A DNA stretch of 64,000 nt from the NCBI GenBank assembly GCA_028015205.1, contig CM051516.1:47434230-47498229 (forward strand). The letters run 5' to 3'. Position 1 is the stretch's first letter. Each line of letters begins with the position of its first letter. The position numbers and the translations under genes are program-made. The stretch is from Mytilisepta virgata. Lineage: Eukaryota; Mollusca; Bivalvia; Mytilida; Mytilidae. This document shows positions 10,641 to 36,620 of the stretch, in pieces. Below the pieces are notes generated by a model that saw nothing but the letters and a program-made list of their open reading frames with translations, was not told where the DNA came from and ran no database searches.

Positions 10641-10872
10641 AACATGTTCAAAACCATTTTCAATTAGACAAATCTTAATTTTATTACACTGACTATTATT
10701 CATGGAGTAATTATCTCTATATGAGTAATATATTAATCATTCACTTTTTTCATCAAATAAGTGGAGCCAAAAATTAATTGTGGATTTAATTGCATCTAGG
10801 GTTAGAGGAAAACGTCCTAATTCCCCAAAAACAGCTTTTCTCCCAGAATGTATTTTGAAAATGTAAGAAGTC

Positions 10873-12935
10873 CATCAGACTTGGGAAAAGTTATATATAC
10901 ACGGCATTTATCTACGTTGTTCATCCCTCAGACTGGACAAAGGTTATATATACTTACTGTATCTATCTGCGTTGCTGATCCTTCAGACTGGACACAGGAT
11001 ATATATACACTGTATTTACCCTCGTTAGTGATCCCGCAGACTAAACAAAGGTTATATATACACTGTATTTACCTACGTTCTTCATCCCCTAGACTGGAAA
11101 AAGGTTATATATACACTGTATTTACCTACGTTTTCATCTCTTAGACTGGACAAAGGTTATATATACACTGTATTTTCCTACGTTGTTCATCCCTTAGACT
11201 GGACAAAGGTTATATATACACTGTATTTGCTTACGTTGTTCATCCCTCAGACTGTACAAAGGTTATATATACACTGTTTACCTACGTTGTTGATCCCTCA
11301 GACTAGACAAAGGTTATATATACACTGTATTTACCTATATTGTTGATCCCTCAGACTGGACAAAGGTTATATATACAATGTATTTATCTAAGTTCTTCCT
11401 CCCTCAGACTGGACAAAGGTTATATATACACTGTTTATCTACGTTATTGATCCCTCAGACTAGACAAAGGTTATATATACAATGTATTTACCTAAGTTCG
11501 TCTTCCCTCAGACTGTACAAAGGTTATATATACACTGTATTTGCTTACGTTGTTCATCCCGAAAATTCGACAAAGGTTATATATACACTATTTACCTACG
11601 TTGTTGATTCCTCAGACTAGACAAAGGTTATATATACACTGTATTTACCTACGTTGTTCATCCCTTAGACTGGACAAAGGTTATATATACACTATTCAAC
11701 CAAGACGTTAGTCCCTAAGACTGGACAAAGGTTAAAAATACACAGTATTTACCCAAGTTCTTCCTCCCTCAGACTAGACAAAGGTTATATATACACTGTA
11801 TGTACCTACGTTGTTCATTCCTTAGACTTCACAAAGGTTATATTACCTTCGTTAGTCATCGCTCAGAATGAACAAAGGTTATATATACACTGTATTTACC
11901 TGCATTGGTGATCCCTCAAACTAGAGAAAAGTTATATATACACTGTATTTGCCTACGTTGTTGATCCCCAGATTGGACAAAAGTTATATATACACTCTAT
12001 ATACCCACGTTGTTGGTCCCTGAGATTGAACAAAAGTTATATATCCACTGTATTTACCTACTTTGGTGATCCCTAAAGATGGACAAAGTTATATATACAC
12101 TGTATTTACGTAGTTCACCTCTCATACCGAAGAAATGCTATATATACATTGTATTTACCTACGTTGTTGATCCCCCATACTGGACATAGGTTATATATAC
12201 ACTGTATTTTCCCACGTTCGTGATCTCTGAGACTGGACAAATGTTATATATACACTGTATTTACCTACGTTGTCGATCACTCATACTGGACGAAGGTTAT
12301 ATAAACACTGTATTTACCTACGTTGTTCGTCCCTCAGACGAGAAAGGTTATATATACATAGCATTTACCTGCGTTGTTCATCCCTCAGACTGGACATAGG
12401 TTATATACACAATGTAGCTATCTGCGTTTCTGATCCCTCAGACTTAACAAAGTTTATATATACACTGTATTTGCCCTTATTGGTGATCCCTCAGAGTGGA
12501 CAAATGTTATATATACACTATATTTACCTACGTTGTCGATCACTCAGACTGGACAAAGGTTATATATACACTGCAGTTACCAACGTTGGTGATCCCTCGG
12601 ACTAGACAAGGGTAATATATATACTGTATTTATCTACGTTGTTGGTCCCTCAGACTGGACAAAGGTTATATATACAGTGTATTCACCCACGTTAGTGATC
12701 CCGCAGACTAGACAAAGTTTATATATACAATGTATTTACCTACGTTCTTCATCCCCCCAGACTCGAGAAAGGTTATATATACACTATTTTCATACGTTGT
12801 TTGACCCTCAGACTTGAAAAAGGTTATATATACAGAGCATTTACTTGCGTTGTTCATCCCTCAGACTGGACAAAGGTTATATATACAATGCAGCTATCTA
12901 CGTTTATGATCCCTCAGACTGGACAAAGGTTATAT
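10873..12935 (+). repeat. 53-bp minisatellite array, segment 1 (about 39 copies)
   Basis: The unit is roughly cctacgttgttgatccctca then gactggacaaaggttatata then tacactgtattta, 53 bp. Copies vary by substitutions and small indels. The array is cut at 12935 inside a unit ('ggttatat') by the LTR retrotransposon and resumes at 30447 in the same phase. Open frames of 80-110 codons arise only because the unit has few stops on the + strand. Confidence 0.95.
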
Positions 12936-13461
12936 TGTTACGGCCGAAATCACCTTTAAATTGTAGCCAACAAAAGACACAAATCAATAATAAAATTTAA
13001 CAAGATTTATTATATACAAGTTTACAAAAAAATATTACACAAACTAAAATGTCAACTTAACTGTTCAAAATCCTTCGTCTTTTCCTAATCCTGAATTCTT
13101 CTCGTCACTGTTGCGGGAATCCAAGCGGAATATTATATCCAATCAGTCACAATCTAGTATGATGTAACGTAAATAAAAGTGTGTCAAGTACGATGTGTGA
13201 AACGTAAATAAAAGTGTGTCAATCCAACAGCTGAGAACACAAGAATGTATGTTCTGAAAGTCTAACTTTCTTGTCCGTATATATACTGTAGAACGGAAAC
13301 TTCTGGAATACGGTAGAATTTTGAATTACACCAGAATTATTACGTAAGTCAAATAGAAAGTTCTAGTCATTCCATCAGTATCTATTATTGTTCCAGTGAT
13401 TTCTAAACTGCGCAGTTATAACATTATTTGGTAAACAACTATACGTATTATGTAAACATAA
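12936..13461 (-). repeat. 3' LTR, outer part (interrupted)
   Basis: Collinear with 29822-30360 of the intact LTR. It lacks a 21-bp stretch after 'cacaagaatgt' and 6 bp after 'attattacgta'; these 27 bp account exactly for the length difference from the 625-bp copy. Only a handful of substitutions separate the two LTRs. It stops at 13461, where the nested insert begins; the rest of the LTR is at 24833-24908. Confidence 0.92.
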
Positions 13462-14671
13462 TGTAATATTTTGCATTGATCCACGTGGTTACCATGTGCC
13501 GTTTGACATCGGGTACTTGTTCATTGATTTTTACTTAGCTCTGGGGCATGACAGCATTTGTGAACGTTTTCAGTTATTTATCTGTGCCCTCACGATCATT
13601 TGTGTTGATATGTTTCAGTGTTTAGTCATTTGTATGTCTGGATAAGTGAGAAAGTTTACTCTCTTGTCGTGTGTAACAACTTACATTTTCATGTTGCACG
13701 ATTTCCGGTGAAAAAGTTGCGCAGCTATGTTAAGGCAATGTTTTTTATTTTTGGTCACGGGGAGATAACTCGTGCTAATGACATGAATATTCATGAACAT
13801 TGCGTGCTACGTCATGGACGTCAATGCCGGCGTTGTTTCCGTCATAAAAGATATTTACGTTAAAATTTCGGTTAATTTTTCGTTGAGATTGATGCGAATG
13901 ATATAACAACGTATATCCTTACGTTGTACATCGCAATGCGTGTCTATATTTGGAGAAAAAAGCTTTGATGTGGTAAAACTTGAGCCGTCCATCATCGTAC
14001 GAAGGCGGGGTCTATTTTCCTTATATGGAAATCTTAATCTTTGAGAAGCTTGAAGAGTGGACATTTCACGTGTTATCAGCCGAGGAGAAGGAGCAACAAT
14101 GATGCAGGCCTTGTAATTGACCAGACACTGATTATGCTGATCTTAAATATTAAGGTAACGTATATCAGTAACCTGACAACATTCATAACATGACCCACAT
14201 GCATTTGTCCACAACACGAAGTGGTGTATCACCTGTTCACTGTTGACACTGACACTGTTGTTTGTCATTTTTCGTGAACCGTATTTAAAAAAAGAATATT
14301 TGTGTGAGAAAAGTACAAAATCCAATATCAGAACATGATAAGTAATAAAAGTATATGTTTTGTTTAAACATAACATTTACCACCCCCCCCCCCCTCCCCC
14401 CCCCAAAAAAAAAAAAAACAAATCTCCCCAAACAAACTCTGGCTAAGTTTTTAGTTGTTAATAAAGCCTCTTTTTATTGTCACCAGGGGATTGTAGTTTA
14501 CTTTGAAAGCCAAATAATAAATAGAATATAAGCGTTTTGTTCTGCTCTGATCTGACAATCGACCCCAGGGTAAGGAATGGGGGATTTGTTTTTGTTTTTT
14601 TTTTAGGTGGCTAGAGAAAATCTAAATGTTGGTGCTGGTGAAAAGTTTATTTATTTAGTTGGTGTTTTACG
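13461..14671. other. Left end of the nested insert, no identified gene
   Basis: Relatively GC-richer sequence (about 13690-14110) with several CG dinucleotides and 'gtcataaaagatatttacg', reminiscent of a promoter or leader region. It is followed by a C-rich/A-rich low-complexity tract at 14382-14420. No conserved protein was recognised on either strand. Confidence 0.35.
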
Positions 14672-14765
14672 TAATCCCTTTTGGGATTCTGTGTTCAGAG
14701 CTATTTTTCTGTCTGGCCGCCAAGTCAGAAAAATAGCTCCGGACACAGAACCCCAAAAGGGATTA
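14672..14765. repeat. Imperfect inverted repeat (hairpin), arms about 40 bp
   Basis: The left arm 14672-14711 (starts taatcccttttggg, ends ctatttttctg) and the right arm 14726-14765 (starts cagaaaaatag, ends ccaaaagggatta) are reverse complements with a few mismatches, around a 14-base loop. It looks like a small fold-back element or MITE remnant. Confidence 0.85.
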
Positions 14766-14969
14766 GGGTTTTATGCTGTTTTCAGCACATTTTGGCTATT
14801 TCGTAGAGGAAGATTAAGAAAATGACAAAAATATTATCAGGTTCTCAGCAGATAAATATTTATAGTGACACCTTTAACCAGTGACTTAAAATTACAGTAA
14901 TTCTTCTATAACTTAATTAAATAAAATACATGGCAAATATATTGTTGTTAAGGTTATTATTTTTTTCAG

Positions 14970-15067
14970 CAGCAACAAAACGTAGAGCTATGTATTTCTA
15001 TGGAGAACAGGAAGCAGAAGTTTATATAAGGCCAATGCTCTGTATATCGGCCCTGTACAAGTGCTAG
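14970..15067 (+). pseudogene. Exon-like open segment, unknown protein
   Basis: A strong acceptor (ttatttttttcag) precedes an open frame reading ATKRRAMYFYGEQEAEVYIR and ending ...CISALYKC, stop at 15065-15067. The translation looks protein-like rather than random, but I do not recognise it and no partner exon was found. It may be a fragment of a host gene carried in the nested insert. Confidence 0.3.
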
Positions 15068-15419
15068 CTTTCAAGAACTTCCTGTTATATTAAACGGTCC
15101 ATTTATATATACTGTATTTCAGGTCATTGATTACCGTTATAATGTAAAATACAGCCGCTCATCACAATATGAAGCCATTGGCTCGTTGGCTATGCTCACT
15201 TGCCAAATAAGGCTTCATATAATGACTGCCAGCTGATATTTTACAATATCAATCTGCAATAAACCTGGTAACATTATACATATTTTTTCATATAGACTGC
15301 AAAAAAAATATTACAGTCAATCTTTAAATAATTTAGAGAGCTATAGTTTTTGGGGTTGATTTAATTGGATATTTAAAAAATAATATTTGATTGTCAGCAT
15401 GATGCACAGCAACAAGATC

Positions 15420-16230
15420 TTTATGCCCCACCACAAATGTGGCTGGGGTATATAGATTTACCCTTGTCCGTCAGTCCGTACGTTTAAATTCGGTTAAGTT
15501 TTGCGTTTAGCTCCATTTCTGAGAAACGTATAGTAATATATCAATGATATTTCACCACTACAGCCATCCTGTATAGTACAAGGCAGTTCAGCAACACTGG
15601 GTCGCTATGACCTACATTTCATGCTTCAGTGACTTTGGTTTAATTTTACTACATTAGGGTCAATAAATCAGAATCTTATGGTAATATATCAATGACCTTT
15701 CACCGCTACATTCCTCTTATATAGTACAACGCTATTCAGCAATATTTGGGTAAGCAAGTAAGTAAGTAATGTCTTTATTTAAAGAGGTAACACAGTTAGC
15801 ATTAAAAAGCTTATCTTCCCGAAGGCCCTCAAATAAAATATAAATTAATACAATGCACAGAATAAATTAATCTAACATTGATCCTATTTCTACAAAGATC
15901 CACACCATGTAGACCATCAATATAAATATATACATATATATATAATCAATAAAATTATATGCATTTAATATAAACATTGAAGCAATAGAATATCTTGCCT
16001 TCAAATACTGTGACTTTAATTTAATAAATTTAGAAAGCTGCACGGAGCTTTAAGTAATCTGTATAATTTCTTTTGAAGGTTTCTATATTTTTCTTTAACT
16101 TTAGGTCTGTTGGTAAAGAATTCCATAAAATAGTCACATTGACCTACATTTCATTGTCGAATAACTTTGCTTAAGGTTTATGTTTAGGTCCATTTCCTCA
16201 TATTTCTTACATTTGAATTTTTTTTTTTTT
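15420..16230 (+). repeat. Hairpin-headed repeat (tatgccccacc), interrupted by a LINE end
   Basis: It starts with a stem (atgccccaccac / gtggctggggtat), then 'ttgtccgtcagtccgtacg', then units containing 'agtaatatatcaatga', 'tatagtacaa' and 'ctatgacctacatttcat'. The phrase 'cagcaatatttgggt' at 15738 continues at 16135 with 'cacattgacctacatttca', so the repeat was broken by the insertion 15751-16134. Confidence 0.7.
15751..16134 (-). mobile_element. LINE 3' end, 5'-truncated
   Basis: On the - strand the segment ends with 'aataaagacattacttactt' and a short (ACTT)n tail, the usual form of a non-LTR retrotransposon 3' terminus. The rest is 3' UTR-like without the reverse transcriptase. It interrupts the repeat at 15420-16230. 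Confidence 0.6.
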
Positions 16231-16949
16231 AAAAATGCTCATTCGAACATACAATAAAAGAAATCAAGTTGATACTGCCATAGCTCCATATCTTAGAAAT
16301 CATGTTGTCAATGATACTTTAACAAAACAATTTTGGTCTTTTAAAGTACAACACAGTTCTGTACCATATATTTGCTCCATTATAAACTTCATTTTTCACT
16401 TTTATAACTGGATATAAACCTATATTGTTTTTAGGGCGGGACGTGTCTTTTGGACACATTTTGTAGTTTTCTTAACTTTTGACAGAAAAATGAGTTTTTT
16501 TTATTGGTATCGGGTAAAGATTATATTTTAATTACAAGTTGATGTTATATGGCAAAAAAAAAGATTAAAAAGGACAGGAAAGTTACATTTACGCTTGTAA
16601 AAAAGTAATTCGATGTGAATAGTTAAATAAAATGGAATTGATACTTGGAACACTACATCCAACCTTGAATCCATATCTAAGGGCCAATGCAAAAACCAAC
16701 CAAGAGTATAAATTAAGTAATATGACTCTTGCCCCTTTGTTCTCCCACCTTGCCTTAAAAACATAAAGAATGATGATCACAAAAACTTTTACTTTACTAA
16801 AATTCTGACAAAAGTCATTATACCATTCTTGAATTAATTCTTAAATTGGCTGTTTTTTTTTTGTGCTTAAGTGTTGTAAAACTTTACACCTATAATACAG
16901 GGTCTTGCATAGGGAAACATGAGGAAATAAAAATATCATTTATGATGAA
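16135..16949. other. AT-rich sequence, no identified gene
   Basis: Between the broken repeat and the SINE only AT-rich sequence with short spurious open frames is seen on both strands. No splice-bounded exon or repeat shared with the rest of the window was recognised. Confidence 0.4.
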
Positions 16950-17310
16950 AACCGCTTTTGTGGTCTCCTGGTAGCGTGCTCGCCTCGAGTGCAGAAGGTC
17001 GCAGGTTCGATCCCCGGCCGGGTCAAACCAAAGACATTAAAATTGGTATTTGCTGCTTCTCCACCATGCACACGGCATATAGCCTACAATGTATAGGAGT
17101 AAGAGCAAAGGACTGGTAGTCAGTATAATGTGTCCGAGTGGGGTGATATGTCTTCCTGCGGATATTTACCTCGTGAGCTAGCATGTTAAAAATCTGGCTC
17201 AGCGTGTCGGTCTAGTACAAAGCAGGGATCATATTCATATCATATTAACATGTTCTCGTTCTGATATGCACCTGGTTGCCACTGGACGATAAATAATAAT
17301 TCATCCATCC
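16950..17310 (+). mobile_element. tRNA-derived SINE with 15-bp target duplications
   Basis: The 5' part carries RNA polymerase III promoter boxes: an A-box region 'tggtagcgtgctcgcc' (about 16969) and a B box 'ggttcgatcc' at 17004-17013. A non-tRNA body follows and the 3' end is a short (ATCC)n run. The direct repeat 'atcatttatgatgaa' flanks it at 16935-16949 and 17311-17325, typical of LINE-mediated retroposition. About 360 bp suggests a full-length SINE; the family was not identified with certainty. Confidence 0.88.
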
Positions 17311-17325
17311 ATCATTTATGATGAA

Positions 17326-18539
17326 CAAAACATAACAATTTAACCTTCATGTAGTATTTTTATATAAGTTTGTTATAAACATCCTTCACTGAGAACTGCA
17401 TGAAAATAACCATGTGCCTGTATGTTCAATCTGATATTTTGAAAATAGGTGAAAATTTGAAATTTTAATAGGAATACATTGTACACAAACATTCATTGCA
17501 GTTCTAAACTCAAAGAGTCATATAGCATCGACTTAGAAAAAAGTACTTCATTGATATATTACATACATATATTCCCTATTTGCAGATATTGGAGTGGTCT
17601 CCCATATGCATGAGTTATCTTTCCTTACATAATGAGCAAAAATTTATTTAACCTTTTCTGAAATATTGAATAGGAGAAAGCCTTCATCAGTTACAAAAAT
17701 TTTGGAGAATAATGTGTATGGAACATATATATTCCTAAGAAAACAAATGACTATTTGTTCATTTAATGTGCACACAACAGTTTTCAGTTTCCTAAATGAT
17801 GTCAGGAATTGATGGTGTCTGTTAATCAAGTTGGTAACTGACCAATTTGTTGTATCTTAAACCCCTATATAAAAACAATATACAATGTATATCAAATTTT
17901 TCAAACTTTTCCACCATGTGACATTTATTTCTGATAAATTTCCACTGTGACATAAACGAGATAAAATACAGTCCCTCCCCCCTTACAAAATCCCAAATAC
18001 ATGTATTGGCTGATTCTAGACTAACAGATTTAGGTGCGAAATTTAAAGGTGTATTATTATAGATATTTGAAAGGTTATATCAATCTGTTTTTAAAACTTA
18101 GTTTCAAGGTAAATTTGCTGGCTTCCAATAGAGTAATCTCCCCTTAGTTAATATTAAATTATATGTTTTAAATTCACATTTCTGATCTTTTTATACAACT
18201 AAAATAAAGTTTAAGTATAAAGTAAGATAATAAATCATAAAAATTCACTGTGCAATGATTAGCAAATTAGGCAATTTGCTTCCAGTTTTTTATTATTTTG
18301 GGGAAAAGTCTATAGAATTTTATTCAAAACTGTTGTTTGCATCATGTGAAAGATGCCTCCAATAAGAACGTGGGAGACAACTCACATCTATCATGTCAAT
18401 AAAAAGCACAATAAAAACAAGTAATTTGACCTAAATTAAGAATTGTTTTGAAAAAATGTGTTTGTTGTTACACAATCTTACACTTATTACCCATTTATTT
18501 AACATGTACCTTCTATACTTATTTTACAGCCTCAAGCTT
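17326..18539. other. AT-rich sequence, no identified gene
   Basis: Nothing with coding character on either strand. It includes a 28-base segment (17597-17624) that is nearly the reverse complement of 20697-20725, and a 'gggagacaactcacatc' phrase at 18382 of the same type. Confidence 0.4.
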
Positions 18540-18605
18540 TGTCATGTGTAACCCTGAACAGGAAAAGGTTTATAACCCGAGAAATGTGATACGACAAAAT
18601 GCAAG
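18540..18605 (+). pseudogene. Exon-like segment, unknown protein
   Basis: A strong acceptor (ttattttacag) and a donor (AAG/gtaaca at 18606) bound a 66-bp segment open in one frame only: SSFVMCNPEQEKVYNPRNV followed by IRQNAR. The composition is protein-like. It leaves in phase 2, which does not match the phase needed by the next candidate at 19739, so either an exon is missing or the locus is broken. Function unknown. Confidence 0.35.
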
Positions 18606-19738
18606 GTAACATTATTTCTGGTATTTGGTATAATACTGCTTGATTTTGGTCACTGACCTACATTTAACGAATGAGTGACTGATAAAATTTTACATTAAAG
18701 TTCTTTGTAACTAAATGTAAATAATAGCTTACAGGTAAATATGTAAGCAATATCACTTCGGATTTGTTAAACCTGTGCATAGTTGTTTCGGACTGAACGT
18801 AACTTTGATGGCCTGAAAATAATTCTCAAGCTTATCTTCCACTTTTCAATGTGTAAATGAAACTGATGTGCACGTTATCTGGGACTCTTTGTTGTATTTT
18901 TGTTCACAGTGCTTATGAAGTCATGTTTTCCCTGTATTATTATCTTTGTAAAAAGGGGCTAGAAATGTGCCATTTTCATGACTTTTCCCAATTAATAAAA
19001 AAAATTATCATTGCTGAATAAAAAAAGGTATTCTTTTAGGCCAGGCAAAATTTATTTTTGGTGAATAGTTTCAGTCTCAAAGAATTCTGTAAATGTAAAA
19101 GAAATTCATTTCATTACAAAGTTAGATAAAAGGTTTGTTTCACTGGAAATTATTGAGTTTGTTTCATTCCTGATTCCATAAAATAAGCTATTTAAAAACA
19201 TGGGGGAAGAAAGTTGCATGATATTATAACAGTTTCTAATAGACAGTCAGACAATTTAAAACAACATTAATAATTGCCACAAAACAAAACAGGAAATTTA
19301 TTTAATTTTCGTGCACCCATCTTTAAAGACAGGACATATTATGGTATACCGTTGATTTCGTCTGTCGACCACACTTCGGACAACAACTCGAAAACGCTTT
19401 CACCAATTTTCAAAACTAGTTGACTTATTTAAATCTATTGACATAAGCTCCCTTTTGTTTTGTTTTTTTTTCATCAATTCCAATATGACATGGATCTTTA
19501 TTCGTTGAAAAATTGTCCAAAACTGTCAATTTTTCACACGTTGGACGGTTATGGAATTTTATTCATTCAAATTTCAGTGTTATGGAACTTTGTTCATTAA
19601 AAAAGGGGGGATTTTTCACATGTCATGCTGTATCTTAAGAACGCATTGTCATATTTACTTCAAACTTTAAACAGTTGTTTGTTGTGATAGTCTAAAGGTC
19701 TTTATACTTTTTGGTGAAGTTACAATTTTCTGTTCCAG

Positions 19739-19902
19739 AGTGGGATGCGACCTACCTGGTATTCATAAAAAATAAGCAACAAAATCAAAGAGTCTATATG
19801 TTAACCGGTGAAATTTTATTTCCTGGACAACAGGTGTATCATGCCCTCATGTTGCAGCAGTTTATTTATTTCTGCCTGGAAAAAAATTGCCCCCGAAGGT
19901 GA
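19739..19902 (+). pseudogene. Exon-like terminal segment, unknown protein
   Basis: A pyrimidine-rich acceptor (ttttctgttccag) precedes an open segment reading WDATYLVFIKNKQQNQRVYM, LTGEILFPGQQ and a tail HALMLQQFIYFCLEKNCPRR with stop at 19900-19902. It needs a one-base carry-in, whereas the upstream candidate (18540-18605) supplies two. Together they may be the 3' end of a captured or decayed host gene. I do not recognise the family. Confidence 0.35.
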
Positions 19903-21059
19903 AAACAGACCTGATCATGTTAGGAGAAACCAACAATCATTCTGTAAATTGTCATAAAATATACATTTATTTTTAATTGCCAAATATGTTATAAACTTCT
20001 ACCTGTTTCTGACGCTCATATACTAATAAATTATATATATTTCCCAACAATTTACTTGTACTTGAACAAAAATGTTTTACTTTGTCAGTTACTGATAAAA
20101 AAGTATATTCTAATTTGTACAGTCACAAGGATTTTATGTAGATGTATACTTAATATAAAATTTTCCGTTTTTATTAATAGGATGGTGATAGGTTACAGCC
20201 AAAGAGCCCGTTGAAAATTGAACATATTAAATGTAAAATTGTCAGTTGTGGAGTTGGACAAAGTTGAGCTGAAGAAAACTGAGTGTATTATACATTGTAC
20301 GGCAGTACATGTAGCAGTTTGAACAAGAGATTGAATTTTAATTTGACTAGATGAATTGAAAATTGAAATACACAATGACATTTCTGGAGTAATCCTGAAA
20401 AATTTTGATTTAAAAAGAAGTTTCTGAAATGTTCATCACACCATGAAAAAAAACCAATGGATTTATTTGAATTACGGAAAAAGATTAATCAGTTTTGGAT
20501 AAATATATAACGCTAACTGAATGAAAGTTTCTATATTTAGTTTGAAAAATGTTCATTGAAATAGTTGTTTTTAATTCAGAATACAAAAAATCAGTAGATT
20601 TAATTTATATCTTTATTTTGTTTATATGTTTTGATGTTCTTTATCTAAAATCTAAAAGTAATTTTTGTCCTTTGTAAATTTATACAAGATACTTTTGGGG
20701 GAAGATAACTTATGCATATGGGAGACAACTTCAAATACAAGTAGGGAATGTGACATCTGGTTAACAAATGTAAAATGATAATAAATATAAACATTTATTT
20801 TAGCAGTTTATTAGAAAATTTTTGTATTTTGAAAAAGGATTGTTAACATTTTTTTGTATTGAGTATTGACATACTATGTGATATTTATTATTAATAGATT
20901 TATTAAAATCATGTGTCTTGAGTAATTTTTCAAGTTTTATTTTTAAAGATGAGGTGGCAAGAATTTGTATGAAATTTCTTGCTCTGTAGTAAGTGAACTT
21001 GATATCTCTGCTTGAGGCTTTGATAAAACATACAAGTAAAGTCAAGAAATACCAAAGGG
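19903..21059. other. AT-rich, 3'-UTR-like sequence
   Basis: No coding signal was accepted. At 20697-20725 lies 'ggggaagataacttatgcat', the right member of the inverted pair with 17597-17624. 'aataaa' occurs at about 20779. Confidence 0.35.
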
Positions 21060-21150
21060 ATATTCGAAGGAGGGGAAAATCGAAACATGGACCCCACCAA
21101 AAAACGAGGGGTAGACTCAGGTGCTCCGGAAGAGTAAGCAGTCTGTTGAC
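21060..21150 (+). repeat. Mussel CCACCAAAAA / GGTGCTCCGGA repeat fragment
   Basis: The phrases 'accccaccaaaaaacgaggg' and 'ctcaggtgctccggaagagt' belong to a repeat I know as very frequent in Mytilus non-coding DNA. A related piece, 'ccaggtgcccctgaagggt', occurs at 56053. Open frames crossing it on both strands are not genes. Confidence 0.6.
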
Positions 21151-21478
21151 AAGAACCAACAATTGTGCAAGTATCAATGGGGGGGGGGGGCTTTTTATGA
21201 CCGTGGGGTGCGTCAGTGAACTGGAAACCCCTATCCGAAATTATCCATATATCGAATTTGTGACCCGAAAATATCCAGGAAAGCTAAAATTACATACCCG
21301 AAATTATCCAAAAATAATAAAAGCCATGATGAGACATATTTAAAGGCAACCTGAATTCTCCTTTGTGCTTTATAAAAATCTGCAGAAAATCCTGACCAAA
21401 AATCTCCACCAGTTTTGTAAAATCTTGACCGGAATTTGCAGCACGTCCTTTATCTAGTACCATTGAGTTACAGAGTTA

Positions 21479-21512
21479 CACACACACACACACCCCCCCC
21501 CCCCCCCCCCTT
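21479..21512. repeat. (CA)n followed by poly-C
   Basis: A simple repeat: (CA) dinucleotides from about 21479 run directly into a C tract ending at 21510. Confidence 0.9.
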
Positions 21513-22540
21513 CCTCTCTCAGCATTGGGGATGATAAAAGGTCATGTTGATGGTAAGTGGTGCAGAATCTGCATGAATTGGCCCCTGCCATGATCATGCA
21601 GGGACCATATAATACTATATATACAGTTCCTTGATCATGTATTCCTGTAAAACCCTTGTATTATGTACACATTGACCCAGAACAGTTAATATGGCTCATA
21701 CATTTAAAGGTAGAAGTTACATCTATTCCTAAGCAAAGAAGGTAATTTTTCTCACAAGTAGTGATTAATTACCGGTAGTCCACCATTTTAAAGCATGGAA
21801 AACTTGCATCCAGACTGGTTTCAGAAGCTATATGCAGTGAAATTTGGCAGTCTCTGCAGTAAAAAAATAATCTCTGAACTTTAAAATTTTAATTCCTTGC
21901 CAAATTTAGGGAGATTTCAATACATGAAAGCAAATATTTTATTCGAAAATGAAAATAAAAATTTATTTGTAACATTTTAGCATATGGTCCTACAGGATTG
22001 GTATAAATACATAAACGTGGGGTTTTGTAACATTTTGTTGGAGCCAAGATATTAAATCTGATCATTCTGAAACCTGGTGGTTTGTAATCCTGTGAAAAAA
22101 TCTACTATACTGGTATGATATGTGAAATAGTGAATGTATAATTTATCCAGATCTCATTGTGCATCCCCCCTACTTTTCTTGTGTTGTGTTTCAGTAAACC
22201 TAAACTGAATGTAAATTGATTTTTCCCAGAAAACCAAATAGAGTATTAATGTTTATTTATTTAATATGGTAACAATACAATATTAAAAATATGTTCATAA
22301 TATTTGCGCTTCTAAAGTTTATATAACTGGTTGCCGACTACAAGATGGAAACAGTAATTCCGGATATCTTTTTGGTCATCGGTGCGCTCTTAGAAATCCA
22401 TCGTCCTCGTTGCGCTTTAAATCCGGAGCGAAATGAGAGTAGAGTTGTTGAATAAAATAAAATCGAAAAGTGCATGGGCATACGCTGAACAGACATTATA
22501 GACATGAATATGTGTGAAATCTGCTATATCTACGGTAATA
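21513..22540. other. Nested insert interior, no identified gene
   Basis: AT-rich sequence. A small palindrome (ccctgcc-atgatcatg-caggg) is at about 21584. A possible LTR-type start 'tgtaacattttgttggagcc' lies at 22027, but no matching end could be paired with it with confidence. Confidence 0.3.
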
Positions 22541-22690
22541 GAAAAGTGCTGCTACTTTTCCTGGTTTGTATTCGTTTTTGAGAAAACTGCATTTAAAGAT
22601 GAAAAATCGTGCTTTTTTGACGCATTCGAGTACTTCATGTCAAATTTTGTAAAAAATACACAAATCCAGACAAAGTAGCAGCACTTTTCA
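22541..22690. repeat. Inverted repeat with 17-bp perfect arms
   Basis: 'aaaagtgctgctacttt' at about 22542 is answered by 'aaagtagcagcactttt' at about 22672, with a loop of roughly 115 bases. It could form a stem in RNA or be the ends of a small fold-back element. Confidence 0.8.
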
Positions 22691-23328
22691 GAAAGACGGG
22701 GTCCTATAGAATATATCGTATATATTCTTGTTAATAGCTGACACCCCTACGCCCTTGCACTTTTGCGAAATGTATGTACACCCGGTCCGTTGTTGGTAAT
22801 TCGCTGTAGTATGCAAATGAGCAATCACGTGACTGAAATAATTACCTGTTAGGTACCTCTTGTCATTGTCATTAACATAGTGGTTAACGATAACGCTCAT
22901 ATGCTAAATATATATGAAGAGTATTCCTTATTTAAGTGGAATAGACCCAATATTATGAAATAAAAAAAAAACATATGCCTTAACATCGCTGCGTGTAGAA
23001 AGCATGCGCAAGAATTGTATGCAAATTTGTTTGTGGAATGTGACCTGACGTGACCTTGTTTGTAAATTTTGTCGGAAAGCGAGTATGAATACGATCTGAG
23101 TGAATTTGAGCATTACGATTAATTTATGAATTAAAGTACAAATGATATTTATTGTCTAATTGCAATGTATTTTATGAACATTTTAGTGTTCCGTAAACAT
23201 CTTGTTTACGCTGTATAGTATTTTTATGTGCTTGTCGGGGATTATTTTTCTGTCATTTTCGGATGCTGAACCAATATCCCCGACGGTTGCTATGAACGCA
23301 CGCTCGTTGCCCCGACTGTTCTAGGGGA

Positions 23329-23352
23329 TATATAAAGGATTTTTCCGACAGA
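23329..23352 (+). promoter_or_regulatory. TATA box and possible start site of an LTR-like promoter
   Basis: A GC-richer stretch (23235-23325) leads to 'ggggatatataaagg' and, about 25 bases on, 'cagattcagttcttc', which resembles an initiator. Downstream, AATAAA occurs at about 23723 and 23966, and the insert ends in CA at 24832. This layout suggests that the right end of the nested insert is the R-U5 end of a + strand LTR. Inference from layout only. Confidence 0.4.
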
Positions 23353-24832
23353 TTCAGTTCTTCTTCTTCTTCTTCCACGTCTTCTGGCTCATTATCAGTC
23401 GAGTAGCTTCAGCTTATTCAGTTTCTTACACATTTTGGTTAGTAATCATGTTTTTCGCGAATTTCGGAATATTTTCCAAAGACCTTTCCTTACTTTTGGC
23501 ATTTCTTATTCAAGTTTAATGTTCTCTTAAACTTGTATCAAAAATTAACAGGACAATTTAGATTTTTCCTGACTTTGAATCATTCTAGTGATGTTTAAAA
23601 CTAAGTCAGAGTTAAACTTTGAGTCAAACTGTATTTTCCCCATTTATCTGAATTGCAAGTAGCACACAATTTCTACTTGATCAGATTTGTTTTCACCCTA
23701 TCAGTTATTTCATTTTATAGAAATAAAGTATTTGCCATTTTCCCATGCCCCTTTTTCATGTAAGGGTTAGGAATCATTTCATGGTTAAGATTTGGACATA
23801 GGAATCCCGATTCATTGCGTTTTCCTATAAATCAGAGAAACTCACAGTTTGCTAGGAATCCTGCAATATAACATTGTCTGATATCATGTTATGCAGAGCA
23901 ATAATTTCATATTTCTAAACTTTCAAATATAGGGATAAGTTAAGGGTTATAGGATTTTCATATAAATAAAGGATAGTTAAAAGTAGGAGTAAAAGTTATT
24001 TTAACTTCTGTGCACTCCAGAAGTTCATTTGTATTATTGAACAATTAACAGTTCAAAATAAGGGATATTATATGCTGTAGTATATATGTTTACCATAGTA
24101 AAACTGGTTGAACACTGAGGCTTATTTTCATATATTGTCAATAGAATAACAAAGCAAATGTTGTACAATTTATTGTTATGAGTAATGCATTGTTAATTGA
24201 ATCAGAATAATAGAATATCTGCTCAACACAGTCTTCTTTCTTCAACATAATTATCTACCATATATCAGCAGCAAAGGCCCACATCTACGCTTCCCTGGCT
24301 ATCTCGTGAGACATTAGACCCTCTTGCTGTCCAACAAGAGACTAATTGATTGCCAGATAGTCCCTGTTCTCTTCAGATAGTCTGTCGGTATCAGCCTTAA
24401 ATTAGAGATCTCCCTCTGGAGTGTCGTTGGTCGTGCTTGTACCATATTCTTGGAGAGTCACCTCCTCCACAGTTGGTATCACTTCCGTCGAACGCATAAC
24501 AGAGTGTGTGTTTAATATTTCCACAGACTAAATTGAGAGAACAGGTCCTTTTCATAAATTATTCTTTTCAACTGAGATTGTAACATTGAAATTTGTTGGA
24601 TTATTCCCCATGTCCCATATCCCTTTATACATATCAATGTTAATGTTCAGAGACAAAATACACATAAAAACATAAATAACCTTGTTCTCAAAAACATTCA
24701 AGATTAGTTGTCTAATCTTGCATTCATTCACTGTGAATTAGTGTCACAGTAGTGCTGGTAACCTGAAAATAACAATCTATTGTCACAGCAGTATTTGGGA
24801 AAAACGAGTGGACCCCTCCCTTGACCGCTACA

Positions 24833-24908
24833 ATATTATACATGTTATAAGGCTACGCAAAACAAATTAGGCCAAGATAAATAATATAATAATTACAATA
24901 TCATAACA
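24833..24908 (-). repeat. 3' LTR, inner part
   Basis: Identical or nearly identical to 30371-30446 of the other LTR, from 'atattatacatg' to 'atcataaca'. On the - strand it begins TGTTATG, directly next to the polypurine tract at 24909-24924. Confidence 0.93.
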
Positions 24909-24924
24909 CCTCCCCCCTTAAAAG
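24909..24924 (-). promoter_or_regulatory. Polypurine tract of the retrotransposon
   Basis: On the - strand the sequence aaggggggagg abuts TGTTATG of the 3' LTR, as expected for the plus-strand primer site of an LTR retroelement. Confidence 0.85.
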
Positions 24925-24990
24925 AAGTTTGAGTATAACGAGAACTTCATGAACAATATATACAAAAATATATAGTATGTTTACACTGTT

Positions 24991-26285
24991 TTAATAAGAT
25001 CTAGATAAAGCATCTGCTATTACATTATCTTTACCTTTAATATGTTTTACAATAATATGATATTCCTGTAACAATAAACTCCACCTAGTCAACCTCTGGT
25101 TCTTGTTTCTCATTTTATGTATGAAGGTGAGAGGATTATGATCAGTATAAACCAGAATAGGATGCATAGTGGGATTTAAATATACATCAAAATGTTGAAG
25201 TGCAGACAACAATGCAAAACATTCTTTTTCAGTAGTGGAATAATTTTTCTGATGTTTATCTAATTTCTTGGAAAGATATGATATATGTTTCTCAACATTA
25301 TCATCTGTTTCTTGATATAAAACAGCTCCAACTCCTACATCACTTGCATCAACGGCAAGTTTGAATTGCTTTTTAAAGTCGGGAGTGATAAGAACGGGAC
25401 TGTTAATTAAAAGTGATTTGCTTTTTTCAAAAGCGTTTTGACAATTATCACTCCAGATGAATTTAGAATCTTTCCGTAAAAGATGAGTCAATGGTTGAAC
25501 AACAGTAGCAAAATTTGAACAAAATTTTCTGTAAAATCCAATCATGCCTAAATATCTCATAAGTTGTTTTTTATTTGTAGGAGGAAGAAAATTGGTAATT
25601 GCATCCACTTTAGACATAATAGGTTTCACTTGACCTTGGCCAACTGTGTGCCCTAAATAATCAACAGTGGCCTTACAAAATTCACTTTTACTAAGATTAA
25701 CAGTCAAATTTGATTGTGACAATCTATCAAAAGTATCATATAAATGTGTTAAATGCTCTTCCCAGCTATCATTACATACAATAAGATCATCAATATAAGC
25801 GTAACAACAGTCTAAATCTTTTATAACATTATTGATCATTCTTTGAAATGTAGCTGGAGCATTTTTCATACCAAACGGCATGACAGTATATTGAAATAAG
25901 CCGTCTGGTGTGACAAAAGCTGATATTTCACGAGCTCTCGGTGTCAAGGGGACCTGCCAGTAACCTTTTAATAAATCAAATTTGCTTACGAATTTTGATT
26001 GTCCAATGTTATCAATGCAATCGTCTATCCTTGGAATCGGATAGGAGTCAGATTTTGAAACTGAGTTTACTTTTCTGAAATCAGTAACGAAACGAAAGGT
26101 TTTATCTGGTTTCGGCACCAGGAGACAAGGAGAGCTCCATTCACTGTTACACGGCTCAATAATATCATTGTCAAGCATATATCTAATTTCTTGTCTCATA
26201 ACATCAAGTTTAAGTGGATTGAGCCGGTAAGGATGTTGCTTAATTGGAGAAGCATCGCCTACATCAACATCATGGTTTTGATTGG
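24991..26285 (-). pseudogene. pol: Retrotransposon reverse transcriptase and RNase H (C-terminal pol)
   Basis: The 402-codon open part (26199-24991) has Ty3/Gypsy RT motifs: SPCLLVPKPDKTFRFVTDFR, the first catalytic Asp in KFDLLKGYWQ (about residue 75), VMPFGMKNAPATFQR, and the active-site YIDD at residues 135-138. RNase H follows (LAVDASDVGVGAVLYQ, then YTDHNPL) and ends ADALSRSY with a stop, so pol ends with RNase H and no integrase follows. Homologous sequence continues upstream of the ATG to about 26285, out of frame with the integrase C-terminus. The stretch 24925-24990 is the short 3' untranslated part. Confidence 0.93.
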
Positions 26286-26326
26286 CACATCTGGAAAAAG
26301 ATTTTTAAAAGAAAATACCAAAGTTC

Positions 26327-27607
26327 TCAATTTTTCTCTGCGAAAGTCAGATGTGCAAGTTTTGAGTCTAAATTTGCCAAAATTTCAGAATTTTTCAATC
26401 TAACAGTTTGTTCCTTAGTCTTGGAATCAAAAGATGGTTCAATTATGTCTGGTTTGTCATGATCGTTCTCCAATTTAACCATGGCTAAAGTGGCAACTGG
26501 TTTACTCTCACCTTCTTTAGTAGGCTCAAAATATGGTTTTAACATATTAATGTGACACACTCTATTTTGTTTACGCCGACCTGGAGTTTTTACAATATAA
26601 TTCAAATCATTGATTTTACTGTCAATTGTATGAGGACCACAGTATTTAGCCTGTAAAGGATGCCCAGGGACTGGCAAAAGTACAAGTACCTTATCACCAG
26701 GCTCAAAAACTCTGTCCCTGGCATCTTTATCATACCATATTTTCATCTTATTCTGTACAGTTTTTAAGTTTTTCTGAGCAATTTGACAAGCAGTATACAA
26801 TATTTCTTTAAATCTAGATACATAGTCTAGAAGATTCAAGTCAGTGTGTTCAGTAAGCCATTTTTCCTTAACCAATTTCAAAGGTCCCCTTACAGTATGA
26901 CCAAACACTAACTCAAAGGGGCTAAAACCAAGGGATTCTTGAACAGCCTCTCGGACCGCAAAAAGTAGAAAGTGAACACCATCATCCCAGTCCCTATCAA
27001 ATTGAAGAAATGTTTGATGAAAACGTTCTCAGGCACCTTGAGATTCTGGATGATAAGCACTTGATCTATACTGAGCAATCCCTAACTGGTAAACGACCTG
27101 CTGAAATAAACGTGACATAAAATTTGAACCCTAGTCGGATTGTATAGGCTTAGGAAGTCCTACTAATGTGAAAAATTTGATAAGAGCTTTGACAATAGTT
27201 GGTGTCTTGATATTCCTTAAGGGAATAGCCTCAGGAAAACGAGTGGATGTACACATGATCGTTAATAAATAAGCATTTCCAGTCTTGGTCTTTGGTAAAG
27301 GTCCAACGCAATCAATAAGTACTCGGCTGAAAGGTTCTTCAAAGGCTGGAATTGGCAGAAGTGGTGCTGGTGGTATTTTCTGGTTAGGCTTGCCAACAAC
27401 ATGGCATATATGGCATGATTTACAGTATTCTGTGACATCATTTCTAAGTCTGGGCCAGTAGAAATGTAATATCTTAAGGCAAGTCTTCCTTATACCTAAA
27501 TGTCCAGCCAATGGGGGTGTCATGGGCAAGACCAATAATTTCTTGCCTATAGACTTTAGGCACCACCACTTGGTATACCACTCTCCATTCCTCCTCTGGG
27601 AAAGCAT
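26327..27607 (-). pseudogene. pol: Retrotransposon integrase, upstream of RT, with stops
   Basis: The first part (27607-27131) carries the HHCC zinc finger (H36, H48, C65, C68) and the first catalytic Asp in LIDCVGPLP (D99); it ends right after the second catalytic Asp region (KPIQSD), where an in-frame TAG stands. Homology continues past it with the catalytic Glu region near 27030, broken by a TGA. The 193-codon part 26908-26327 is the C-terminal domain (FEPGDKVLVLLPVPGHPLQA, then YCGPHTI and CHINMLKPYF), the GPY/F-like module. The domain lies between protease and RT, not after RNase H. Defective as it stands. Confidence 0.9.
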
Positions 27608-28445
27608 CAGGGGGCCTCCACTTCCTCATCAAAATGCCGTCTTGATGGTAGTAACATTCGGCCACTTTGTCTGCTTCTTCTTGTGGTAGAGCCCTCTTGC
27701 AGAGCTGAAGAACCTCAGGGTCTTTATTCTGTTCTTCCCTAAATGTTCTTTTTTCTAACGAATGGCTGTTCACGTCTGGACATGGCATAATTACATGCTT
27801 GTTAGTACCAGGTGGTCTTATGGCCTTTTCTGAGCTACCGAGACCTTCAATGTCGGCAATGAAAGTGTCAGAAAGGTCCATATAATCATACTGGCCTTCT
27901 TGTAAATCCTCGTCTTGTTGTTTTCTTACCATCGCCCTAGTAACAACACAAGCTGGATACAGTTCAGCATCATCTTCAGGTGATTTAACATCCACCACCG
28001 GTTCACTTGTAACAATTGGTTCAGCAACCACTTTGTTCCTAGCTAGATCATTTCCTAGCAATAATGAAACACCCTCAACAGGGAGAGTAGGACGAACACC
28101 CACAACAACTGATCCAGTAGTTAAATCTGACTTCAAATAAATACGATGGAGGGGAACATCTATACAACCTAACTCCACACCTCGTAACAAAACGGAGGCA
28201 CCAACGGACGTCTCCTCGGACAAAGGCAACACACCTTCTAACAACAAAGACTGAGAAGCTCCAGTGTCCCGTAAAATCTTAATAGGCTGATGAGTAGTAT
28301 TATTAACAATAGAAACAAACCCATCAGACATAAAAGGTTTATAATCCTCCATGTTATCACAAAAACTGGACTTAAAAGCCTGACTCGCAGGACATTCCAA
28401 CTTATTGGTAACAAGCACTGGACTTGGGCTTATGATCTCTTTCAT
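27474..28445 (-). pseudogene. pol: Retrotransposon aspartic protease region
   Basis: An open stretch of 323 codons on the - strand has the retropepsin active site DTGA at residues 60-63 (KILRDTGASQSLLL) and the later hydrophobic-Gly pattern LLLGNDLA. A long linker follows, and the end overlaps the integrase start in another frame: a five-C tract near 27516 marks a one-base indel relative to the integrase frame. Its frame also differs from that of the zinc knuckle just upstream, so the protease would need a +1 shift from gag or the copy is damaged there too. Confidence 0.85.
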
Positions 28446-28459
28446 TCTTGTTCTGGAGT

Positions 28460-29732
28460 CTAAAACAATCAGCCATCAGGTGACCATTTTTCTTACAATA
28501 AGCACAAGTTAGTGACTTCTTCTCAAAAGTATCAAATTTTGGACCAGACATATTATAACTAGACGGACTCTTATTCTGTGCAACAGGCTTACTATCAGTA
28601 CGTTCAGTGCTTTGATTTTTGTAATTTTGTAATTTCCGCCTGAAGTATTAAAATTTTGACCTTTGAAACTTCTTTTATGTGAAATGGTATAATTATCGGA
28701 AACAACAGCTGCATCTTGCAATGTCTCAACAGTTTTGTCATCTGAATGTGTTTTTAAGTCTAAATTAATACACTGCTTGAACTCTTCTAATAACATTAAT
28801 TGTCTTAATTTATCAAAATTTTTATCTATTTTCTTTGACGTAAGCCATTTATCAAATAGATCTTTTTCCCTAGCAAATTCAACATAGGTTTGTGTTTCAA
28901 ACTTTTTATAAGACCTAAATTTCTGTCTATATGCTTCTGGCACTAGCTCATAAGCTTTCAAAACTTCCTGTTTAACAGTGTCATAATCAGAACTTTTTTC
29001 TGAAGAAAGAGCTGAGTAAATTTCAGCGGCCTTGTCCACAAAAACACTTTGCAGCATTGTAGTCCAATAAGGCTTTGGCCATTTCAAATTTTGAGCAATT
29101 TTCTCAAACTGTGGTAAAAATTTATCAACTGTTTTTTCACAAAATTTGGGAACCAAACGTATATTTTTTGCTGCATCAAAATGTTCTGATTTTGACTCAT
29201 ATTTAGTTTTGCTTTCTACTTTAGCTATTTCTATTTTTATTTTCTCCATCTCTAACCTTTCCCTCATTTCAAGTTCTGCCTGTAATTGTTTTTCTTTAAA
29301 TTCATCTTCTTTTTCTAATTGTTTTAATTTAACTTCGTTTTCCAATTGTTTTAATTTAAATTCATCTTCTTTTTCTAATTGTTTTAATTTAACTCCGTTT
29401 TCCAATTGTTTTAATTTAAATTCATCTTCTTTTTCTAATTGTTGTAATTTAACTTCGTTTTCCAATTGTTTTAATTTCGGTTCATGTTCTAATTCAAGCT
29501 GTTTTAATTTGAAAGAATCAACATTTTCGACCTTGAGGTCAAGAGCCTCTTCACCAAAATGTTCTAAGTCAACTAAATTGTCTATTACCAATTTTTTTAT
29601 AATTTGTTTTCTCATAGATACTCTAAAATCTATTTTTAGATGTTTAGCAAGCAACACTAATTCTTCTTTCTTTAATTTATCAAACCCTTCCAGGTTTGGC
29701 GTTTTCAAAAATTTACCAGCATCAAATGCCAT
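28460..29732 (-). pseudogene. gag: Retrotransposon gag with coiled-coil repeats and CCHC knuckle
   Basis: The ATG is at 29732, about 65 bases inside the primer-binding site. The first 200 residues are helical; residues of roughly 85-145 consist of three tandem 20-residue units of the type EVKLKQLEKEDEFKLKQLEN. The middle part resembles retrotransposon capsid (KFRSYKKFETQTYVEFARE). A short duplication in the DNA near 28625-28635 shifts the frame, after which the other frame encodes a CCHC knuckle CAYCKKNGHLMADC (28466-28505). The nominal stop of the 407-codon frame at 28509 is therefore an artefact of that shift. Confidence 0.88.
29287..29490 (-). repeat. 60-bp tandem repeat inside gag
   Basis: Alternating 'ttttaatttaaattcatctt' and 'taatttaacttcgttttcca' blocks repeat with a 60-bp period, about 3.3 copies, and encode the 20-residue coiled-coil units of gag. 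Multiples of three are kept, so the frame stays open. Confidence 0.9.
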
Positions 29733-29796
29733 TTTGTAGAATTTTGTTGGCTAATTCTAATAAAAATACTGAAAAAATTTAATAAGATATTAACGT

Positions 29797-29816
29797 TATC
29801 CCGAGACGAGCCCCCA
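29797..29816 (-). promoter_or_regulatory. Primer-binding site, tRNA-Pro-like
   Basis: On the - strand, five bases after the 5' LTR end (GTAACA), the sequence TGGGGGCTCGTC... appears. It is complementary to the 3' end of a proline tRNA as used by many retroelements, with one base more than the vertebrate tRNA-Pro 3' end in the T-stem part. The mussel tRNA itself was not compared. Confidence 0.7.
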
Positions 29817-29821
29817 ATTTC

Positions 29822-30446
29822 TGTTACGGCCGAAATCACCTTTAAATTGTAGCCAACAAAAGACACAAATCAATAATAAAATTTAACAAGATTTATTATA
29901 TACAAGTTTACAAAAAAATATTACACAAACTAAAATGTCAACTTAACTGTTCAAAATCCTTCGTCTTTTCCTAATCCGGAATTCTTCTCGTCACTGTTGC
30001 GGGAATCCAAACGGAATATTATATCCAATCAGTCACAATCTAGTATGATGTAACGTAAATAAAAGTGTGTCAAGTACGATGTGTGAAACGTAAATAAAAG
30101 TGTGTCAATCCAACAGCTGAGAACACAAGAATGTTAATGTCCGGTCCAATATGTTATGTTCTGAAAGTCTAACTTTCTTGTCCGTATATAAACTGTAGGA
30201 CGGAAACTTCTGGAATACGGTAGAATTTTGAATTACACCAGAATTATTACGTACATGTAAGTCAAATAGAAAGTTCTAGTCATTCCATCAGTATCTATTA
30301 TTGTTCCAGTGATTTCTAAACTGCGCAGTTATAACATTATTTGGTAAACAACTACACGTATTATGTAAACATATTATACATGTTATAAGGCTACGCAAAA
30401 CAAATTAGGCCAAGATAAATAATATAATAATTACAATATCATAACA
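29822..30446 (-). repeat. 5' LTR (intact, 625 bp)
   Basis: It begins TGTTACGG and ends ATAACA on the + strand, i.e. TGTTAT...GTAACA on the - strand. It matches the split 3' LTR over its whole length with only a few substitutions and two deletions (21 and 6 bp) in the other copy. It is followed directly by the ATAT duplication and resumption of the 53-bp array. Confidence 0.95.
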
Positions 30447-33400: not shown

Positions 33401-33688
33401 TTTCGTCCCTCAGACTTGAAAAAGGTTATATATACAGAGCATTTACCTGCGTTGTTCATCTCTCAGACTAAACAAAGGTTATATATACAATGTAGCTTTC
33501 TACGATTATGCTCCCTCGGACTGGACAAAGGTTATATACACTGTATCTACCTACGTTGTTCGTCCTTCAGACTGGACAAAGGTTATATATACACTGTATT
33601 TACGTATATATACCTACGTTGTTGATCCCTCTGACTGGACAAAGGTTATATATACACTGTATCTATCTTCGTTGTTGATCCCTCAAAA
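30447..33688 (+). repeat. 53-bp minisatellite array, segment 2 (about 60 copies)
   Basis: Continues the unit broken at 12935 ('atatatacactgtattta'). Copies vary in the 'gttgttgatccctc' part (gttgttcatccc, gttgtcgatcac, gttcgtgatccc). A C-run sits at about 32681-32694 and a (TA)n expansion at about 33106. The longest apparent open frame (31380-31898, 172 codons) is made entirely of repeat units. Confidence 0.95.
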
Positions 33689-34275: not shown

Positions 34276-34615
34276 GCTAGACAAAGTTAATATATATTTA
34301 TTTTATTTACCTACCTTGTTGAACCCTCAGACTAGACAAAGGTAATATATATATTTTATTTACCTACCTTGTTGAACCCTCAGACTAGACAAAGGTAATA
34401 TATACACGGCATTTACCTACTTTGTTCATCTTTCTGACTGGACAAAGGTTATATATACAATGTGGCTATCTACGTTTATGATCCCTCAGACTGGACAAAG
34501 GTTATATATACAGTGTATTAACCTAAGTTGTTGCTTCCCCAGACTGGCCAAAGGTTATATATACACTGTATTTATATACGTTTTTGATCCCTCAGATTAG
34601 ACAAAGGTAATATAT
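34276..34615 (+). repeat. 53-bp minisatellite array, segment 3
   Basis: About six units between the duplicated insert and the solo LTR; it ends 'ggtaatatat' at 34615. Confidence 0.93.
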
Positions 34616-36262: not shown

Positions 36263-36620
36263 ATATAGTCTGCATTTACCTACGTTGTTCATCCCTCTGA
36301 CTGTACAAAGTTTATATATACACTGTATTTACCTACGCTGTTGATCCCTCAGACTAGACAAAGGTTATATATTATACACTGTATTTACCTATATTGTTGA
36401 TCCTTCAGAATGGACAAAGGTTATATATACACTGTATTTACCTAGGTTCTTCCTCCCACAGACAAGAGTTACATAAACACTGCATTTACCTACGTTGGTG
36501 ATCCCTCAGACTATACAAAGGTAATATATATATATATATATATATATACTGTATCTATCGACGTTGTTGATCCCTTATACTGGACAAAGGATATATATAT
36601 ATTGTATTAACCCACGTTAG
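36263..36620 (+). repeat. 53-bp minisatellite array, segment 4
   Basis: About six to seven units, one with a (TA)n expansion at about 36520-36548. It ends 'cccacgttag' where the TTAA-type element begins. Confidence 0.93.

Follow-up and report, generated by a model that had tools for sequence, protein, structure and literature searches.

Large retrotransposon derivatives (LARDs) consist of two long terminal repeats (LTRs) flanking a long noncoding interior. Helitrons make no target duplication and have 5′-TC...CTRR-3′ termini, and most known non-autonomous DNA transposons with terminal inverted repeats (TIRs) are far shorter than 9.3 kb. In plants, the Pack-TYPE elements described in PMC8903248 are non-autonomous TIR elements able to carry host DNA. 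According to the passages cited from PMC2836005, Ginger DNA transposons have TGTNR termini and a 4-bp duplication, with TIRs of ~40-270 bp in Ginger1 and ~50-180 bp in metazoan Ginger2. For the CMCT group (EnSpm/CACTA, Mirage, Chapaev, Transib, Plavaka), PMC12730594 gives duplications of 2-5 bp as typical (2 bp in PlavakaA, 2 or 3 bp in PlavakaB) and, for EnSpm/CACTA and its CMCT kin, 5′-CA..TG-3′ termini "in most cases". Here we compare with these systems a 64,000-bp stretch of the genome of the bivalve Mytilisepta virgata (contig CM051516.1, positions 47,434,230 to 47,498,229; this whole stretch is the window, and positions refer to it), where the 3′ LTR of a Ty3/gypsy-like element is split by 11,371 bp (13462-24832) between TG and CA. 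Almost certainly, the locus is a nest of insertions with the oldest outermost: the gypsy element, then a solo LTR (element A), then a TIR transposon (element B).

An earlier reading made from the letters of the window (the sequence-only reading) had described an LTR interrupted between TG and CA, with ataa and atat at the edges. Both points were confirmed: the insert ends in TGTA...TACA, and its flanks, ATAA and ATAT, differ at one of four positions. The arithmetic of the two LTR pieces also holds, as 526 + 76 − 4 = 598 = 625 − 27. Three identities had been offered: a LARD-like giant non-autonomous derivative, a solo LTR later filled with insertions, or a vehicle for captured host exons. The parts of the insert are as follows.

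13458-13461, unstranded: left copy of the target duplication of A, ATAA, with one mismatch
13462-13719, + strand: left piece of A, 258 bp, beginning TGTAATATT; genome matches of the first family end exactly here
13718-13719, unstranded: left TG of the target duplication of B; A copies without B have ...AAAAGTTGTAGAA... here, or a sequence close to it
13720-22993, + strand: B, a 9,274-bp TIR DNA transposon without a recognized gene; 20 genome copies fetched
13720-13751, + strand: left TIR of B (CGCAGCTATGTTAAGGCA...), a 32-bp inverted pair with 22962-22993
22962-22993, − strand: right TIR of B (CGCAGCGATGTTAAGGCA...); exact terminus common to 19/19 right-end loci (L030-L048)
22994-22995, unstranded: right TG of the target duplication of B
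22994-24832, + strand: right piece of A, 1,839 bp, ending CCGCTACA; genome matches reach base 24832
24833-24836, unstranded: right copy of the target duplication of A, ATAT

We searched the assembly that contains the window (1.034 Gb in 109 contigs), scoring the best 40 matches per DNA query. Both outer ends of the insert belong to A, and the first 500 bp of the insert match two different repeat families that meet at base 258/259 (13719/13720). A second, internal boundary pair, which the sequence-only reading had overlooked, lies at 13719/13720 and 22993/22994. In all six other fetched A copies (L003-L008), which supply empty B sites, 13719 runs directly into 22994; the insert is therefore A (13462-13719 plus 22994-24832, 2,095 bp in total) interrupted by B (13720-22993). 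At the right end of A, 39 of the 40 best matches (one being the window itself) extend to the final base, 24832; the other falls short of it. Perfect 4-bp duplications flank the five other A copies in which both flanks were read (gtac, gtag, ttat, atat, atac), and ATAA/ATAT in the window is best read as an ATAT duplication with one later change.

The limits of B are defined by its own copies. It begins with CGCAGCTATGTTAAGGCA and ends with TGCCTTAACATCGCTGCG; 17 of 18 terminal bases are inverted-identical, and the inverted ends span ~20 bp. Twenty copies were fetched by their match to the left end, and 19 loci were chosen by the right end, some of them the same elements. A common start base is found in 20/20 fetched copies, and on the right all 39 matches besides the window's own stop at query base 498-508, where base 500 is 22993 (best 40 matches). 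Both ends lie inside the fetched stretch in 14 copies, 8,394-9,737 bp long. Matching 2-bp flanks (tg, ca, at, cg, ta, tt) border 13 of these 14, as they do the window copy (tg/tg). Across the genome, the end motif CGCAGCNATGTTAAGGCA has 113 + 115 = 228 exact occurrences, compared with 0 + 0 for the reversed control, and 186 + 194 when two mismatches are allowed (control, 14 + 13); 228 exact ends thus correspond to roughly 100 copies of B. Among the first 100 ends listed, 80 form 40 inverted pairs, of which 20 are 9.1-9.7 kb long, 6 are 7.5-7.9 kb long, and 14 have other lengths.

These results bear directly on the other identities of the insert. A single giant non-autonomous LTR element of 11.4 kb between TG and CA, as in the LARD-like proposal, would account for the TG/CA ends and their LTR-type 4-bp duplication. 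Yet the insert contains one LTR, not two: a repeat comparison within the window found neither a two-LTR structure nor a direct repeat joining the insert ends, which have nothing in common but TGTA/TACA, a 4-bp inverted match. Moreover, the 9.3-kb middle is missing from 6/6 other fetched A copies and has its own ends and its own copies, so this proposal retains practically no probability. Alternatively, the insert may be host genome that entered as a block, through a circle or during break repair, and whose TG/CA ends are coincidental. The old repeats inside the insert and its base composition, which is like that of the flanks, agree with such an origin, as does the 7% chance of an overlap of at least 3 nt among simulated random breakpoints (TG/CA, 1.5%; TGTA/TACA, 0.014%). 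Both boundary pairs, however, are found at numerous independent genomic sites, and we consider a chance block very improbable. A Helitron spanning the whole insert was rejected once the genome copies were seen, and a Ginger element would need TIRs of at least ~40 bp, compared with the 4 bp that the outer ends share. What survives of the sequence-only reading, which is partly supported, is the solo LTR later filled: a single LTR family supplies both ends, and a single TIR transposon of 9.3 kb fills the space between them.

As that reading had also stated, the insert carries no gag or pol: none of the 78 scanned open reading frame (ORF) pieces, out of 83 listed, matched Pfam at E 0.01, a scan that leaves room for spliced genes. 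Laxer Pfam scans returned matches below the family cut-offs alone (RSN1_TM, E 0.075; RepL, E 0.11-0.22). A scan for tRNA primer-binding sites (PBSs) and polypurine tracts (PPTs) inside the insert gave nothing that fits an LTR element, and Rfam (gathering thresholds) and ARAGORN gave nothing in the window.

Some observations weigh against the nest as described. The B copy L011 has flanks tt/gt, or gtt/gtt if its duplication is 3 bp long, and one base is changed in the right terminus of copy L027. Twenty of the 100 listed B ends are without a partner within 25 kb. The left duplication of the window copy of A has a mismatch (ATAA for ATAT), and the junctions are taken from assembled sequence.

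The element that received A lies in satellite DNA, with the following features.

12936-30446, minus strand: outer gypsy element, whole, Ty3/gypsy-like
12936-13461, minus strand: first piece of its 3′ LTR, 526 bp, matching the intact LTR at 520/525 aligned bases, with two gaps besides
24833-24908, minus strand: second piece of its 3′ LTR, 76 bp, agreeing at 76/76 bases with the end of the intact LTR
24909-29821, minus strand: its interior, with gag including a SCAN-like domain, reverse transcriptase (RT), RNase H and integrase parts, in several separate frames (Pfam)
29822-30446, minus strand: its intact 5′ LTR, 625 bp, which serves as an internal copy of the empty site
10871-12935, 30447-33685, 34277-34615, 36263-36620 and 37523-38643: arrays of a 53-bp satellite whose unit contains TTATATATACACTG, flanking the outer gypsy element and continuing past it

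Relative to the intact LTR, the split 3′ LTR has 5 substitutions and two gaps, of 21 and 6 bp. Pfam matched the zinc-binding domain of the integrase, and the match to its core domain fell under the cut-off for that family. The 53-bp satellite forms the surroundings of the whole element. Elsewhere in the window, 40739-42830 holds a degraded reverse transcriptase, which we take to be non-LTR-like; its piece 41655-42119 matches RVT_1 with E 1.9e-10.

A is a solo LTR, since one LTR is present without an interior. Full members of the family do have one. In copies L006 and L055, the A end is followed by an interior with a PBS-like TGGCATCC... sequence. In L055 (contig C12 of the assembly, 18161683-18165600), TAAATT and the PBS-like TGGCATCCTCGG come after the LTR end, and a PPT-like AGTGGGGGCAAA precedes the TGTAATATT of the next LTR. 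The L055 interior has a zinc-knuckle gag, a similarity to PNMA just under the cut-off and an aspartyl protease; three frames of it were scanned without an RT or integrase match. Since RT and integrase went unmatched in the one interior read, the label gypsy-type for A is drawn from gag, protease and termini. Among the best 40 matches, 11 steps between same-strand A neighbors were read: nine measure 5.857-5.886 kb, one 3.94 kb and one 9.70 kb. The ~5.86-kb spacing suggests that an interior with gag and protease only is the main form of A, which would need RT and integrase from elsewhere. Separately, two A LTRs lie 9.29 kb apart on C8 and may represent a fuller form of A, and C14:41654613-41666822 has three A LTR ends spaced at 5.86 kb, suggestive of a tandem LTR-interior-LTR-interior-LTR array. 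The promoter-like region that the sequence-only reading placed 1.5 kb from the right end of the insert is present as motifs but is not a separate feature; it belongs to LTR A, near base 590.

23327-23358, + strand: predicted TATA box (GATATATAAAGG) of A, with an initiator-like TCAGT, around LTR base 590

We take these motifs to be a TATA box and an initiator, and hence a predicted promoter. No exact match to one motif from the A end or to one motif from the SINE-like (short interspersed nuclear element-like) piece of B described below was found in viral contigs.

The layers are close in age, and B has been active recently. Over filtered matches, the 20 fetched B copies and the window copy show a median of 1.05% substitutions (range, 0.16-1.32%); raw identities of 97-98% are lower because indels are counted. 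The window copy of B has 38 private substitutions (0.41%), and the outer LTR pair differs by 5 changes in ~598 bp, or ~0.4% per LTR with a wide error; it is from these two figures that a similar age follows. The nesting suggests the order of events. A Ty3/gypsy element would have inserted into the 53-bp satellite, and an LTR retrotransposon of family A would then have entered its 3′ LTR with a 4-bp duplication. Recombination between the two LTRs of A may have left the 2.1-kb solo LTR, into which B would have been pasted with a 2-bp duplication, presumably moved in trans by a transposase made elsewhere. The boundaries, duplications, empty sites and copy families on which this history draws are observed directly.

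B varies among its copies. At window position 21084, the window copy is short of ~70-90 bp present in all 17 fetched copies whose match crosses there. Copies L018, L023 and L021 carry further insertions of ~2.15, 2.1 and 1.1 kb, respectively, together with a partial tandem duplication in L018. One 7.7-kb B-type copy, sampled at six places, is 88-98% identical over the longer matches and is an older relative; by coordinates, it lacks ~1.5 kb between 13915 and 16581. Two other samples (L062 and L064) match B at 97% and 93-96%. On C5 (20632361-21048858), six right-hand B ends, all on the minus strand, lie at distances of 53-155 kb from one another, and the listing has no left ends there; this is probably a truncated B copy in a large tandem duplication, one sample (L065) matching B only from 18550 on, at 94%. 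On C6 (4882966-4889323), a B-type inverted pair spans 6.36 kb, of which the right 1.9 kb is B (L033); a sample of its middle (L063) has no match in the window or in the fetched copies, as a nested insertion or a different interior would. No autonomous partner of B was found, and the first 100 listed ends hold no adjacent inverted pair of less than 25 kb with two like ends.

Several features lie inside B.

14672-14765, unstranded: hairpin with arms 91% complementary
15427-16180, unstranded: old dispersed repeat with units 79% alike, interrupted at ~15754-16132 by a fragment resembling the 3′ end of a long interspersed nuclear element (LINE; ...TILWNSLPTDLK...)
16935-17325, + strand: SINE-like insertion with a perfect 15-bp duplication, ATCATTTATGATGAA
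22466-22764, unstranded: degenerate palindrome with a 64% self-match

The hairpin, the diverged repeat, the LINE-like piece and the SINE-like insertion are older than the burst of B. The exact 15-mer of the SINE-like insertion occurs twice in 14 of the 20 fetched copies, once in 5, and not at all in L021. We take ~15754-16132 to be probably LINE-derived, and the insertion at 16935-17325 to be presumably a tRNA-SINE, although ARAGORN found no tRNA there; the SINE-like stretch had no match among plasmids.

Two origins of the interior of B are about equally likely, and neither reaches an even chance. Under the first, host DNA (positions ~14.1-22.1 kb) was captured between transposon ends, in the manner of plant Pack-TYPE elements, and then amplified. 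The CpG profile is consistent with capture: observed/expected CpG is 1.85 in the first 300 bp of B and 1.0-1.2 in the last 0.87 kb, compared with 0.0-0.9 between. So are the SINE-like insertion with its duplication, the LINE-like piece and the diverged repeats, all of which predate the burst. However, CpG-poor stretches also occur in plain retroelement sequence at this locus. The ratio is 0.32 in the 3′ portion of LTR A, and the gypsy interior has 0.45, compared with 0.64-0.77 for four blocks of flanking DNA, so the profile does not single out host DNA. The interior also has no recognized gene or homolog, and no parent locus was found, though the best 40 matches, to which scoring was limited, are B copies. 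Finally, most of the interior is already matched by samples from one copy of an older class, 7.7 kb long.

Under the second, B is a decayed, formerly autonomous DNA transposon whose transposase exons are no longer recognizable. The roughly 100 copies with precise ends favor it, as do splice-like motifs around 18530, 19739 and 20181; candidate exons lie at 18530-18605, 19739-19898 and from 20181. The Pfam result above (0/78 ORF pieces at 0.01) speaks against it; the candidate exons had no significant Pfam match, the RepL matches (E 0.11-0.22) being under the cut-off, and the candidate 66-amino-acid product had neither a PDB match nor a protein-database homolog. That database holds some mytilid proteins, since the ORF at 1832-2263 of the window found four matches there, two of them named Mytilus, at 48 and 51% identity. 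In addition, a stop codon interrupts the candidate frame in L028, and only 5 of 10 copies examined have an exact match to the start of the second candidate exon. For these two reasons we claim no gene for B. The longest ORFs in four other B copies are 149, 144, 171 and 145 amino acids. The captured host exons of the sequence-only reading fail for the whole insert; B itself may have captured host DNA, although neither Pfam, the PDB nor the protein database gave a significant match for the candidate exons.

The fullest form of the capture idea, which we consider rather unlikely but worth stating, would make B an animal counterpart of Pack-TYPE elements: an undescribed TIR lineage with sequence-tolerant 2-bp duplications that took up host DNA, ~8 kb in all and possibly including a gene and its introns, and recently spread this DNA as a single block to about a hundred sites. 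What looked like a strange 11-kb object is explained by the ordinary nesting of three elements, which removes a spurious giant LTR derivative; the interest that remains is B itself, a young, large DNA transposon family without a recognized gene. If its interior is captured host DNA, B would offer a concrete way for kilobase-sized blocks of bivalve DNA to move, and if the Pack-TYPE-like reading is true, B would be a vehicle for large presence/absence differences in a bivalve genome. Large presence/absence variation is described in the Mediterranean mussel, and the passages cited from that report leave open the role of transposable elements (PMC7653742).

Compared with described systems, A is like a gypsy-type solo LTR in its TG...CA ends, its 4-bp duplication and its sequence, which is that of the LTRs of full elements; it differs in its length (2.1 kb) and in being split by B. 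The outer ends of the insert fit the TGTNR termini and 4-bp duplication of Ginger, but the same ends are explained by LTR A. With non-autonomous TIR DNA transposons, B has in common inverted ends, a target duplication, many near-identical copies and no recognized transposase, and it is set apart by its 9.3 kb and a 2-bp duplication of varied sequence. Tc1/mariner is excluded because the 2-bp duplications vary: ta flanks occur in 4 of 14 genomic copies, alongside tg, ca, at, cg and tt. A Helitron is likewise excluded for B, which has a 2-bp duplication and TIRs. The length of the duplication fits the CMCT group, but the termini, CGCAGC...GCTGCG, are neither 5′-CA..TG-3′ nor those of Plavaka. 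The transposase of EnSpm/CACTA and its CMCT kin carries C(2)C and H(3-4)H motifs, and no autonomous partner of B in which to look for them was found. We leave B unassigned to a superfamily. No described element like B was recognized in the literature searched for one, which is not proof that none is in print. While no parent gene is shown for B, and the cited passages of PMC8903248 treat plants, B resembles Pack-TYPE elements in being a non-autonomous TIR element.

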